Positions 11,997 to 17,240 of a stretch of 64,000 nucleotides of DNA are shown here, piece after piece; within the stretch, counting starts at the first letter, position 1, and the number at the start of each line of letters is the position of its first letter. A program made the position numbers and the translations under genes. The DNA comes from Meiothermus sp. (GTDB lineage: Bacteria > Deinococcota > Deinococci > Deinococcales > Thermaceae): the NCBI RefSeq assembly GCF_026004055.1, contig NZ_BPIJ01000002.1, positions 621,803 through 685,802 of the forward strand. The letters are read 5' to 3'. The notes beneath the pieces were generated by a model. It did not search any database and was not told where the DNA came from. It saw nothing but the letters and a program-made list of their open reading frames with translations.

Positions 11997-12025
11997 TTGC
12001 ATTCTGGGGCTCGATGGCGCAGACT
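11997..12025 (+). promoter_or_regulatory. Promoter of the trp leader/trpE
   Basis: TTGCAT (11997-12002), a 17-bp spacer and CAGACT (12020-12025) place the start site near 12032, three or so bases before the leader-peptide ATG. Confidence 0.55.
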
Positions 12026-12034
12026 AAAGGCCAG

Positions 12035-12079
12035 ATGGTACGAACCGTACACGTCAAGGGTGGGTGGTGGCCTGGCTAG
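12035..12079 (+). CDS. trpL: trp operon leader peptide (MVRTVHVKGGWWPG)
   Basis: A 14-codon open frame with two adjacent TGG codons (12065-12070) ends at TAG 12077-12079, immediately upstream of competing hairpins and a terminator in front of trpE. This is the layout of ribosome-mediated attenuation: when tryptophanyl-tRNA is scarce the ribosome stalls on the Trp pair and frees the antiterminator. It was recognised by translation of the leader; nothing else supports it, but position, Trp codons and structures agree. Confidence 0.8.
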   Translation: MVRTVHVKGGWWPG

Positions 12080-12136
12080 CCCCGGGACGGTAGCGGTCGG
12101 TACCCCTGGGGCTTTTTTCCAGGGGATTTTTTTATT
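12071..12136 (+). promoter_or_regulatory. trp attenuator (antiterminator and intrinsic terminator)
   Basis: Terminator: CCCCTGG (12103-12109) pairs with CCAGGGG (12119-12125), followed by ATTTTTTTATT. Antiterminator: GCCCCGGG (12079-12086) can pair with CCTGGGGC (12105-12112, one G-U), which would block the terminator. Protector: CCTGG (12071-12075), just after the Trp codons, can pair with CCGGG (12082-12086, one G-U). All three alternatives are mutually exclusive in the expected way. Confidence 0.78.
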
Positions 12137-12147
12137 GAGGAGTAAGC

Positions 12148-13563
12148 ATGGCAATATCGGAAAAAACCAAGCCCACGGTTCCGGTCAAGAAAACCTTGCT
12201 GGCCGACCTCGAGACCCCCGTCACGGCCTACCTAAAGCTCTCGGAAAAGGCCAGCCCCAGCTTTCTGCTGGAGTCGGTGGAGGGGGGCAAGGCCTGGGCG
12301 AGGTGGAGCTTTGTGGGGGTGGGAGCCCGCAACACCTGGCGGCTCAAGGACGGGGTGTTTACCCTAAACGGCGAGCCGCTAAAAACCACAGACCCCTTGC
12401 GCACGCTGTATCAGGCCATCCACCGGCCCATCCAGCCCGACCCCGATCTTCCGCTGTTCTGGGGGGGCGCAGTGGGCTACGCGGCCTACGACCTGATCCG
12501 CTACTACGAAAAACTACCTAGCCAGAAGCCCGACTTACTCGAGATTCCCGACCTTCTGTTTGTCGAGCCCGAGGTGGTGGTGGTATTTGACCAGTTCAAG
12601 CAGCAGATGCACATGGTGGCCCCTGCCCAGGAGGGCGAGCGGGCCGAGGCCCTAGAGCGCATCGCCTGGGCTGAGAAGAAGCTGAGCGGCCCGCTGCCCG
12701 GGGTGCCGGGTGAACGGGCCGGGCGGCGTATGGAGTTTAGCCAGAACGTTTCCCAGGCCGAATACGAGGCCATGGTGGAGCGGGCGCTGGAATACATCCG
12801 GGCCGGCGACATCTTCCAGGTGGTGCCGAGCCTGCGCCTTTCGGCCCCGCTCAACGTGCATCCCTTCGCGGTTTATCGCGCCCTGCGCTCGGTAAACCCC
12901 AGCCCCTATATGGGTTTTTTGGAGCTAGGCGAGGTGACGCTGGTCTCGAGCAGCCCCGAGAGCCTGTTGCGCTCGGATGGGCGCAAGGTGACCACCCGCC
13001 CCATCGCGGGCACCCGCCGGCGCGGCAGGGATGCCGCCGAGGATCGGGCCCTGGCCGAGGAGCTGCTCAGCGACGAGAAAGAAAGGGCCGAGCACGTGAT
13101 GCTGGTCGACCTTTCCAGGAACGACCTGGGCCGGGTCTGCCGGTATGGTAGCGTGCGGCCAAAAGAGCTCATGACGGTGGAGAACTACTCGCACGTAATG
13201 CATATTGTTTCGACCGTAGAGGGCGAGCTGTGCGAGGACAAAACCCCCCTGGATGCCCTGGCCTCGGTCTTGCCGATGGGCACGGTTTCGGGGGCCCCCA
13301 AGATTCGGGCCATGGAAATTATCGAGGAGCTCGAGCCCGCCCGCCGGGGGGCCTATGGGGGCGCCTTCGGCTACCTGGCCTACGACGGGCACATGGATGT
13401 GGCCCTGACGCTGCGCACCATGGTGATTGCCAAGGAACAACTACACATCCAGGCCGGGGCCGGGGTGGTCTACGACTCCCGCCCAGAGGCGGAGTACCAG
13501 GAATGTTTGAACAAGGCCCAGGCCATGCTCAAGGCGGTGCGGTTGGCGGAGGAGGGATTGTGA
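12148..13563 (+). CDS. trpE: Anthranilate synthase component I
   Basis: 471 residues. It makes anthranilate from chorismate with ammonia delivered by TrpG, the first step of tryptophan synthesis. The N-terminal regulatory domain (residues about 25-160) includes the LESVEGG segment that binds feedback tryptophan in this family; the chorismate-binding domain (about 195-465) shows PIAGTRRRGRD, ERAEHVMLVDLSRNDLGRV (19 residues), GTVSGAPKIRAMEIIEELE and the final YDSRPEAEYQECLNKA. A GAGGAG site lies 5 nt before the ATG. It is preceded by the leader peptide and attenuator and followed 47 bp later by an unrelated S23 gene, with trpG beyond it. Confidence 0.93.
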   Translation: MAISEKTKPTVPVKKTLLADLETPVTAYLKLSEKASPSFLLESVEGGKAWARWSFVGVGARNTWRLKDGVFTLNGEPLKTTDPLRTLYQAIHRPIQPDPDLPLFWGGAVGYAAYDLIRYYEKLPSQKPDLLEIPDLLFVEPEVVVVFDQFKQQMHMVAPAQEGERAEALERIAWAEKKLSGPLPGVPGERAGRRMEFSQNVSQAEYEAMVERALEYIRAGDIFQVVPSLRLSAPLNVHPFAVYRALRSVNPSPYMGFLELGEVTLVSSSPESLLRSDGRKVTTRPIAGTRRRGRDAAEDRALAEELLSDEKERAEHVMLVDLSRNDLGRVCRYGSVRPKELMTVENYSHVMHIVSTVEGELCEDKTPLDALASVLPMGTVSGAPKIRAMEIIEELEPARRGAYGGAFGYLAYDGHMDVALTLRTMVIAKEQLHIQAGAGVVYDSRPEAEYQECLNKAQAMLKAVRLAEEGL

Positions 13564-14630: not shown

Positions 14631-15467
14631 ATGATTTCGGTAATTGTTCCCACCCACAACCGCCGCCATCTGCTGGAAAAAAAGCTACGCAGCCTGGAGG
14701 CCCAACAGGGCGAGTTTGAGGTAATCGTGGTGGCCGATGGCTGCACCGACGACACCCTGGCGTTTTTGCGGGACTATCGCCCTCCCTACAGCTTGCAGGT
14801 GCTACAGACCGGCGATGGCTATGGGCAGGGCAGCGGGGCCGCGAAGGCCCGCAACCAGGGGGCGAAGTCTGCCAAAGGGGATATTTTGCTCTTCTCCGAC
14901 GACGACGTGATGCCCCAGGCGGGCTGGCTCGAGGCCCACCAAAAGGCCCATACAGCGCCTCGCACGGTGGCGGTGGGGCGGCTGGTGCTACCTCCCGAAC
15001 TGCGCGGCACCGGGGCCGCCGAGCTAAAGGGCCCCCGGGTTTTCTGGTGGCACGTGACCGGCAACAACACCTCCTTGCCCAAAGCCCTGTTCGACGAAGT
15101 GGGGGGCTACGACCCGGCCTTCAGTGCCTACGGCGGCGAGGATTCCGACCTGGGCTACCGGCTTTTCAAGGCGGGGATGCGACTGGTCTTTGTGCGGGAA
15201 GCGGTTGCGCTACACGAAGCCCCAGAGCACCGCACCCGGGCCGTGCAGAAAGCCCGGCAGGCGGGCGCGGCCCATGTGCGGGTCTGGCAGAAGCACGGCG
15301 ACCCCAAGATTGCCTGGGCCCTGGGCGTGCACCCCGCCCTGCTGGCGGTGAAGATGGCCTTGTTGCCGAGCTTTAAGGGGCTGCTGGGAGCTAGGGGCGA
15401 CTACGAGCTGGCCTTTGCCTGGGGGGCCTGGGAGGCCCTCGAGGCCAGCAGAAACCCTCGAGCCTGA
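14631..15467 (+). CDS. Family 2 glycosyltransferase
   Basis: 278 residues with a GT-A fold: ISVIVPTHNRRHLLEKKLRS at the N-terminus, VVADGCTDDT for the nucleotide sugar, and the DxD-type SDDDV at residues 89-93. A later GGEDSDLGYRLFKAG block is typical of the acceptor/catalytic region. It adds a sugar to a lipid-linked or surface polymer; donor and acceptor unknown. It is the first of three GT2 genes placed between trpG and trpD. TAAGCT lies 7 nt before the ATG, so it may have its own leaderless promoter. It overlaps the next gene by 1 nt. Confidence 0.88.
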   Translation: MISVIVPTHNRRHLLEKKLRSLEAQQGEFEVIVVADGCTDDTLAFLRDYRPPYSLQVLQTGDGYGQGSGAAKARNQGAKSAKGDILLFSDDDVMPQAGWLEAHQKAHTAPRTVAVGRLVLPPELRGTGAAELKGPRVFWWHVTGNNTSLPKALFDEVGGYDPAFSAYGGEDSDLGYRLFKAGMRLVFVREAVALHEAPEHRTRAVQKARQAGAAHVRVWQKHGDPKIAWALGVHPALLAVKMALLPSFKGLLGARGDYELAFAWGAWEALEASRNPRA

Positions 15468-16354
15468 TGGACTTCAGCATCGTCATCCCCACCCACAACC
15501 GGGCCGAACTCGTAGCCCGGACGGTGGCGGCTTTTCTGGCGCAGGAGGGGCCGGATTTTGAGGTGATTGTGGTGGACGACGGTTCGACCGACGAGACCGC
15601 CCGGCGCTTGCGCTCTTTGGCCGATGAGCGGCTGCGGCTGGTGTCGCAGGAGAACCGGGGTCTGGCCGCCGCCCGCAACGCGGGTTTTGCCCAGGCCCGG
15701 GGACGATATGTGCTGTTTAACGACGACGACATCGTTCCGGAGCCGGGGTTTTTGCGGGCGCACCTCGAGCTGCACCGGCGGTATGCCGGCATCGCCGCGG
15801 TGAGCCGAACCCGGATTCCAGACGCGCTAGGACAAGACCCCTTTACGCGCTTCTGGCGAGCACGGGCCGAGCGAGGGGTTCGGGGCAAGGCCGATGGAGC
15901 CTTGCTGGGGCGCGGGGGGTACTGGTTTGCCAGCCTCTCGGTGGAACGAACCCGCCTGCCGGCAGGGCCCTTTGCCCCCTTTGCCGGGTATGGCTGGGAG
16001 GAGCACGAGCTGGGCCTGCGCTTGTGGGCGCGGGGCGTCCGCCCCCGGCTGGCTGCTATGGCCTGGGCCGCCCACGAAGACCGGGTGAGCCTGGGGGGCA
16101 TGCTCACCAAGTTTCGCAGCATGGGGCGCACCGCCTGGCAGTTTTACCGCAGGCACCCCAGCCTCAACGTAGCCCTCTGGACGGGCACCCACCCCGTTTT
16201 GTTGGTACTCAAACGCCGGGCCTACCCCTGGGCCAAAGCCGAGCAACTCCTGGGGCAGCGAGACTGGGAGGACGGGGCGAAGGCTTTTAGCAACTACCGC
16301 TTCTTGCTCGAGGCTGCCTATACCCAGGGGTTGTTGGAGGGCAAAGGTGGCTGA
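15467..16354 (+). CDS. Family 2 glycosyltransferase
   Basis: 295 residues. GT2 hallmarks are FSIVIPTHNRAELVARTV, VVDDGSTDETARRL and the metal-binding NDDDI at 85-89, followed by a GYGWEEHELGLRLW region that corresponds to the catalytic ED motif. The ATG overlaps the stop of the preceding GT2 gene (TGATG), and the next gene overlaps it by 8 nt, so the three are tightly coupled. The role is probably surface polysaccharide or glycolipid assembly (inference from family and grouping). Confidence 0.88.
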   Translation: MDFSIVIPTHNRAELVARTVAAFLAQEGPDFEVIVVDDGSTDETARRLRSLADERLRLVSQENRGLAAARNAGFAQARGRYVLFNDDDIVPEPGFLRAHLELHRRYAGIAAVSRTRIPDALGQDPFTRFWRARAERGVRGKADGALLGRGGYWFASLSVERTRLPAGPFAPFAGYGWEEHELGLRLWARGVRPRLAAMAWAAHEDRVSLGGMLTKFRSMGRTAWQFYRRHPSLNVALWTGTHPVLLVLKRRAYPWAKAEQLLGQRDWEDGAKAFSNYRFLLEAAYTQGLLEGKGG

Positions 16355-17240
16355 GCCTCTGGTCTACATCCTGATCCTCAACTACCGGGCCTGGCAGGAT
16401 ACCGTGGCCTGCCTGGGGGCTTTGGAACAACTCGAGTACCCCAACTACCGGGTGTTGGTGCTGGACAACGCTTCCGACAACGACTCGGTCGCCCGGATCC
16501 GGGCGGCTTTTCCGGGGGTGGAAGTGCTGGAGTTAGAGCGCAACCTGGGGTTTGCCGGGGGCAACAATGTGGGCATCCGTCGGGCCTTGGCCGAAGGGGC
16601 GGCGTATGTCTGGCTATTGAACCCGGATACCCTGCCCGACGCCAGAGCGCTCGCCGCGATGGTTGAACAAGCCCAGCAAGACGCCCAAATCGGTGCGGTG
16701 GGCTCGGTGCTCTACGAGATGAACCGGCCCGAACAGGTGCAGGCCTGGGGTGGAGGGGAGGTGGTGTGGCCGTGGGGCTTGATTCGCTTGTTGAACCACC
16801 CCCGCCAGGCTGCACGGCTGACCTACCTCAGCGGGGCCAGCCTGTTGCTGCGGCGGGCGGCCCTCGAGCGGGTGGGTTTGTTGGACGAGGGGTTTTTCAT
16901 GTACGGCGAGGATGCCGACCTGGGCTTGCGGCTTTTGAAGAGCGGGTTCAAGCTGGCAGTGGCCGCCGGGTCGCGGGTCTGGCACCGGGGCGGGACTTCC
17001 TGGCAGGGAAGCCTGAGCGCCGACGAGCAGTTTGCCGCCTACAACACCCGGCTTTTGCGTAAACATGCCCCCTGGCCCTGGCTGGCAGTACTGGGGTATG
17101 GCAGTTTTTGGCTGGCCGAGTATGCCCTGCGCCGCCGCTGGGACAAAATAGGAGCCCTCTGGCGCGGCATCGGCCGGGGCTGGCGACTGCCCATCGCACC
17201 GGAGCCCGATGGTTTGTCAGACCAAGCCACCCCCCCGTAA
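16347..17240 (+). CDS. Family 2 glycosyltransferase (rhamnosyltransferase-like)
   Basis: 297 residues from GTG 16347. It starts VYILILNYRAWQDT and has VLDNASDNDS, ERNLGFAGGNNVGI and LNPDTLPD (residues 91-98), the pattern of the WcaE/rhamnosyltransferase subgroup of GT2; GEDADLGLRLLKSGF is the later catalytic motif. The C-terminus has a hydrophobic stretch (WLAVLGYGSFWLAEYAL) that may touch the membrane. It ends just before trpD, whose start lies within 2-14 nt of this stop depending on the start chosen. Confidence 0.87.
   Translation: MAEPLVYILILNYRAWQDTVACLGALEQLEYPNYRVLVLDNASDNDSVARIRAAFPGVEVLELERNLGFAGGNNVGIRRALAEGAAYVWLLNPDTLPDARALAAMVEQAQQDAQIGAVGSVLYEMNRPEQVQAWGGGEVVWPWGLIRLLNHPRQAARLTYLSGASLLLRRAALERVGLLDEGFFMYGEDADLGLRLLKSGFKLAVAAGSRVWHRGGTSWQGSLSADEQFAAYNTRLLRKHAPWPWLAVLGYGSFWLAEYALRRRWDKIGALWRGIGRGWRLPIAPEPDGLSDQATPP

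Follow-up and report, generated by a model that had tools for sequence, protein, structure and literature searches.

A predicted ribosome-mediated tryptophan attenuator with a nearly leaderless leader gene upstream of trpE in Meiothermus and its relatives

Attenuation of trp genes through a translated leader peptide is a textbook mechanism. In Escherichia coli, trpL encodes a 14-residue peptide with tandem Trp near its end, and three alternative helices, including a terminator before trpE, are formed in the leader. For Thermus thermophilus HB8, an attenuator-like structure before trpE in the trpE-trpG region is reported to have been described by Sato et al. in 1988 (BBA 950:303, a citation given in PMC8305020). 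Our literature search gave no openly available study of trp attenuation in either Thermus or Meiothermus. In Sinorhizobium meliloti, the 14-amino-acid leader trpL (rnTrpL) precedes trpE(G), and its RNA starts at the ATG and is leaderless (PMC7298713). Several attenuator leader peptides in Streptomyces are also leaderless, including leuL of Streptomyces lividans, which lies before amino-acid genes, and LeuL2 has a hairpin and a U stretch downstream (PMC8079986). A preliminary description of the DNA studied here called ribosome-mediated trp attenuation classical in proteobacteria, which is too narrow, since experimental support in Actinobacteria is also cited in PMC4833913.

The window, which is the whole stretch of 64,000 nucleotides analyzed here, is from a 3.18-Mb genome whose closest matches in a genome search are Meiothermus species, its own genus. 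All features of the leader are on the plus strand. The preliminary description claimed a 14-codon ORF with adjacent TGG codons ahead of trpE, and this ORF, trpL (MVRTVHVKGGWWPG*, where the asterisk denotes the stop), was confirmed at 12035–12079, with the ATG at 12035–12037, the tandem TGG codons at 12065–12070, and the TAG stop at 12077–12079. The leader of trpE thus contains a short ORF with tandem Trp codons. The regulated gene, trpE (12148–13563; Pfam Anth_synt_I_N and Chorismate_bind), has GAGGAG ahead of its ATG at 12148. Further downstream, a gene of the 23S rRNA intervening-sequence-protein family (PF05635; 13611–13976) lies between trpE and trpG. trpG is separated from trpD by three ORFs (14631–17240), of which the first is a family 2 glycosyltransferase and the second and third look similar to it, judging from their translations.

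Three mutually exclusive pairings had also been proposed for the leader, and all are present where they were placed, except that the antiterminator is one pair longer. The 1:2 hairpin (12071–12086), assigned from the sequence and the alignment, pairs 12071–12075 with 12082–12086 (CCTGG:CCGGG) and may serve as a weak pause or basal-termination hairpin. The antiterminator is a helix of 9 bp (AGCCCCGGG:CCTGGGGCT); its 5' arm, segment 2 (12078–12086), begins within the stop codon, and its 3' arm is segment 3 (12105–12113). Both arms were assigned from sequence and covariation, the 3' arm from helix energy as well. The 3:4 hairpin (12103–12125), supported by covariation, pairs 12103–12109 with 12119–12125 (CCCCTGG:CCAGGGG) and is followed, after one A, by a T7 tract at 12127–12133 that is T-rich in relatives. 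This intrinsic terminator between trpL and trpE was also called by a consensus terminator scan.

The folding energy of the whole trpE leader is unexceptional (z −1.36), as could be the case if a plain intrinsic terminator merely followed a chance Trp-rich ORF and the ribosome had no regulatory role. Arguing against this explanation, a scan for tandem-TGG short ORFs with a hairpin and T tract within 80 nt downstream, with criteria chosen post hoc for a site already known, gave trpL as the one site in the 64-kb window and no site in 20 dinucleotide shuffles. An RNA covariance model search found no second copy of the trpE attenuator in the window's genome, and no Trp-rich leader of this kind was seen close to the start of trpS or of the IGPS gene (trpC). 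Because the folding energy is not exceptional, relatives were needed to decide whether the attenuator is real.

The trpE upstream regions were drawn from 90 genomes of the order, and the searched set comprised 111 genomes, which is the same set at order, class, and phylum level and does not include Deinococcus. Named records show the same motif in M. hypogaeus, M. taiwanensis, M. luteus, M. rufus, Calidithermus, and Thermus. Judging from these named records, we take families f1, f4, and f5 to be Thermaceae, Marinithermaceae, and Trueperaceae, respectively. The covariance model strongly matched 61 of the 64 Thermaceae and Marinithermaceae genomes, once in each (E 2.4e-10 or better); about half of the 61 matching sequences were used to build the model and so necessarily match it, and the other half were not. 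The three genomes without a match (G036, G014, and G020) are exactly those without a detected trpE. The matches sit upstream of trpE in every genome where positions were comparable, G019 being outside this comparison with its partial trpE match. Trp-rich leaders precede trpE in four families: those in families f2 and f3 are mostly of the types ...YWWWQPEKPRV* and ...NWWWQLG*, and three f2/f3 leaders at trpE (G004, G002, and G008) are still matched weakly by the model. Each of the 61 genomes of Thermaceae and Marinithermaceae in which trpE was detected thus has the leader ORF and the stems. The claim of a complete trp attenuator before trpE is correct to the base in the window, and the lack of conservation in close relatives that the preliminary description named as its refutation was not found. 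This distribution suggests that ribosome-mediated trp attenuation of the classical type is an old and general trait of the two families.

An alignment of trpE upstream regions, suggested in the preliminary description as a check for conserved Trp codons and compensatory stem changes, was made and both were found. In the MAFFT alignment of 31 diverse sequences, 92.5% of the antiterminator cells are standard-paired, four of the nine pairs have changes on both sides, and none of 500 shuffles gave as high a covariation score. The values are 96.7% for the terminator, with compensatory changes in four of eight pairs, and 96.8% for the 1:2 hairpin, with two of five pairs changed on both sides. When the 3' partner was shifted by one column, pairing decreased to approximately 68–76% in each of the three helices. 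The antiterminator, mutually exclusive with the terminator, has thus been kept by compensatory change. In segment 3, the middle column (column 48 of alignment A1) changes along with its partners in both segments 2 and 4, a joint change that, at the level of the alignment, marks two structures in competition. When each sequence was searched independently, the antiterminator and terminator helices were obtained in nearly all leaders; in the Thermus loci L031 and L054, an alternative pairing was preferred because the arms are GC-rich palindromes. The antiterminator at locus L019 is longer, with 13 bp and no mismatch (CGGATAGCTCCAG:CTGGAGCTATCCG), and it has compensatory changes. The attenuator is not a product of chance, because it is conserved in 61 genomes of two families with both competing helices covarying. 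A plain terminator beside a chance ORF is extremely improbable in view of the conserved WWPG* leaders and the covarying antiterminator in these genomes.

The leaders in Thermaceae and Marinithermaceae end almost invariantly in WW(W)PG*, and their N-terminus and length (mostly 10–16 amino acids) vary. Variant ends are WWRPG*, WWSG*, WWPR*, and WWPRKP*, and the leader at locus L038 has a single Trp codon (...RPWPG*). At L015 and L018 (genus g2), a change of the stop TAG to AAG lengthens the peptide, which now ends in WWWPRKP* or WWRPRKP* at a stop that lies within segment 2. In the window, codon 10 of trpL is Gly (GGG), where nearly all Meiothermus relatives have Trp, and the leader is thus one Trp codon short of the usual Meiothermus three. 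The pN/pS ratio of the codons before the tandem Trp is approximately 0.70 in Meiothermus and 1.5 in Thermus. Since these N-terminal codons drift freely, selection appears to act on the Trp codons, the spacing, and the helices rather than on the peptide, as expected for codon-sensing attenuation. Of 57 leaders, 52 have the stop 12 nt from the tandem Trp. The distance from the tandem Trp to the start of segment 2 is 12–17 nt in nearly all leaders; in the window it is 13 nt, counted from the first of the Trp codons. Considering the known size of the ribosome footprint, this spacing appears to fit a footprint switch.

The near invariance of WWPG* might also point to a TnaC-like arrest, in which the nascent peptide rather than codon stalling would halt the ribosome. 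However, the PG codons double as segment 1 of the 1:2 helix, which accounts for PG*, the N-terminal residues are free to drift, and some lineages have the variant ends WWRPG*, WWSG*, or WWPR* or the single Trp codon. We regard such arrest at trpE as very unlikely. T-box and TRAP-like attenuators control trp genes in other bacteria, so that a tRNA-sensing or protein-binding element instead of a translated leader should also be considered. No T-box or other Rfam family matches the leader even at E 10, only unrelated sub-threshold matches being obtained, and the conserved codons and stop spacing indicate translation; this explanation, too, is extremely unlikely. Sensing of the Trp codons by a translating ribosome is the reading we prefer.

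Upstream of the leader ORF, a −35-like hexamer, TTGCAT (11997–12002; TTGCA[TA] with the same spacing in nearly all Meiothermus relatives), is separated by a 17-nt spacer from a −10-like hexamer, CAGACT (12020–12025; TACACT or CAAACT in relatives). TTGCAT-N17-CAGACT is kept in most Meiothermus relatives, and genera g2 and g3 have TACACT instead. The pair only approximates the sigma-70 consensus, and a generic promoter scan did not report it. The −10 box is 9 nt from the leader ATG in the window and in most Meiothermus; in Thermus, TATCCT or a close variant lies exactly 6 nt before it (TAnnnT-N6-ATG), and Marinithermaceae mostly have TAnnnT 7 nt before it (7–8 nt in most). Judging from the −10 position, transcription is predicted to start at 12032–12035, giving a 5' UTR of 0 to approximately 3 nt with no Shine–Dalgarno site, and the 9-nt spacing would imply approximately 2–3 nt. 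A purine run resembling a Shine–Dalgarno sequence occurs in no more than 4 of the 57 leaders. The ATG at 12014, upstream and in frame (MAQTKGQ...), was rejected as the leader start, since it lies ahead of the −10 element and lacks conservation. In several Thermus genomes (L024–L026, L029, L030, L036, L069, and L089), the leader promoter comes after a stretch that is similar to the 5' portion of a tRNA (GGTGGCCGAGCG...) and may be a gene remnant.

Zheng et al. regarded genes with a −10-like signal approximately 10 bp upstream of the start as leaderless and predicted that approximately 40% of Deinococcus-Thermus genes are of this type (PMC3160421). The trpE leaders are predicted to be leaderless genes by this criterion, and the predicted near-leaderless start of trpL is normal for the phylum. 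The earlier statement that the leader transcript is almost leaderless is supported by the conserved spacing between the −10 box and the ATG. Its corollary, special demands on ribosome loading, poses a real mechanistic question but is not without precedent, given these leaderless genes and the Sinorhizobium and Streptomyces leaders. With almost no 5' UTR and the terminator approximately 70 nt downstream of the start, the ribosome would have to load early on leaderless nascent RNA, which is testable in Thermus thermophilus, a genetically tractable thermophile.

It is very likely that trpE is controlled by tryptophan through ribosome-mediated transcription attenuation on leaderless or nearly leaderless mRNA. 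From the anatomy, conservation, covariation, and spacing observed here, we infer the transcription start, leader translation, and response to tryptophan as follows. RNA polymerase would start at the leader AUG or within approximately 3 nt of it, and a ribosome would load on the 5' AUG without a Shine–Dalgarno site. Under scarcity of charged tRNA-Trp, the ribosome would stall with a Trp codon (12065–12070) in the A site and cover segment 1, leaving segment 2 free to pair with segment 3; this pairing would block the terminator, and the polymerase would read into trpE. With Trp in good supply, the ribosome would reach the stop (12077–12079) and cover segment 2, allowing 3:4 pairing and termination at the T tract. 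Without translation, the 1:2 hairpin would sequester segment 2, again leading to termination. The net effect would be lowered trpE transcription when charged tRNA-Trp is plentiful.

The calculated energies at 37 and 60 °C are −5.4 and −2.3 kcal/mol for the 1:2 hairpin, −16.1 and −10.4 kcal/mol for the 2:3 antiterminator helix alone, and −12.5 and −8.0 kcal/mol for the 3:4 terminator helix. Points against attenuation are that, on paper, the antiterminator is more stable than the terminator at 37 °C, that the 1:2 hairpin is predicted to be weak at growth temperature, and that the window's leader has lost one Meiothermus-typical Trp codon and is without an Rfam match. Because the antiterminator is stronger than the terminator, default termination would depend on the ribosome at the stop or on an early-forming 1:2 hairpin.

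Other conserved uORFs were observed before trp genes. In the window's genome, trpB lies elsewhere (L120, G000:C1:734945–736099, minus strand). It is preceded by a leaderless-looking uORF, MRIRTPRSYKWHHQRWWRGWP* (motif at C1:736278–736307, minus strand), with TACCCT 9 nt ahead of the ATG and then a CTCGAGG/CCTCGAG terminator with T5. The amino-acid sequence of its core, RTPRSYKWHHQRWW, is conserved in Meiothermus and relatives (pS 0.42, pN 0.05, pN being somewhat lowered as the sequences were chosen partly by motif). RTPR(S/A)(Y/F)K(W/R)xH is conserved in Thermaceae, Marinithermaceae, and Trueperaceae despite synonymous changes. The degenerate RTPRSYKWHHQRWW pattern has 47 sites in 46 of the 111 genomes, nearly all just 5' of trpB, and the reversed pattern has none in the 111 genomes. 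Oceanithermus-type genomes have related peptides nearly without Trp (MRIRTPRTYKIRHQRFW*). Trueperaceae are without the trpE attenuator and have, 90–215 nt before trpE, a small ORF with conserved SWTG[AV]LGRWR (L057, L059, L064, L066, L067, L068, L078, L083, L084, and L086; some variants are RWTG.. and RRTGTTWRWR); the nine matches of this pattern in Trueperaceae are all upstream of trpE.

The trpB uORF is a candidate arrest peptide or Trp sensor. This uORF and that in Trueperaceae look peptide-constrained rather than like codon-counting attenuators, and they are stranger than the trpE attenuator itself. A tentative and rather doubtful proposal is that two leaderless leader genes control tryptophan synthesis in the phylum, by codon sensing at trpE and by an arrest-peptide sensor at trpB, and that a conserved-peptide uORF replaces the trpE attenuator in Trueperaceae. 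If so, Trp sensing would be dual, and the trpE attenuator would make up one of its halves.

The element in the window belongs to a known kind and is ordinary: it is real, and its reading as a ribosome-mediated trp attenuator is well supported. It resembles E. coli trpL in its 14 residues, late tandem Trp, three alternative helices, and pre-trpE terminator. Unlike E. coli trpL, it has no leader 5' UTR or Shine–Dalgarno site, judging from the predicted start, its segment 2 starts at the stop codon, and its 1:2 hairpin is weak. The Thermus thermophilus HB8 region concerns the same gene in the same family and another genus, the comparative and covariation evidence coming from the present analysis. 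The leuL system of Streptomyces lividans differs in depending on leucine, not Trp, and in belonging to another phylum. Sinorhizobium trpL is alike in having a 14-amino-acid leader before trpE(G) and, if the predicted start is right, in its leaderless mRNA, and there the terminated RNA and the peptide additionally act in trans (PMC7298713).
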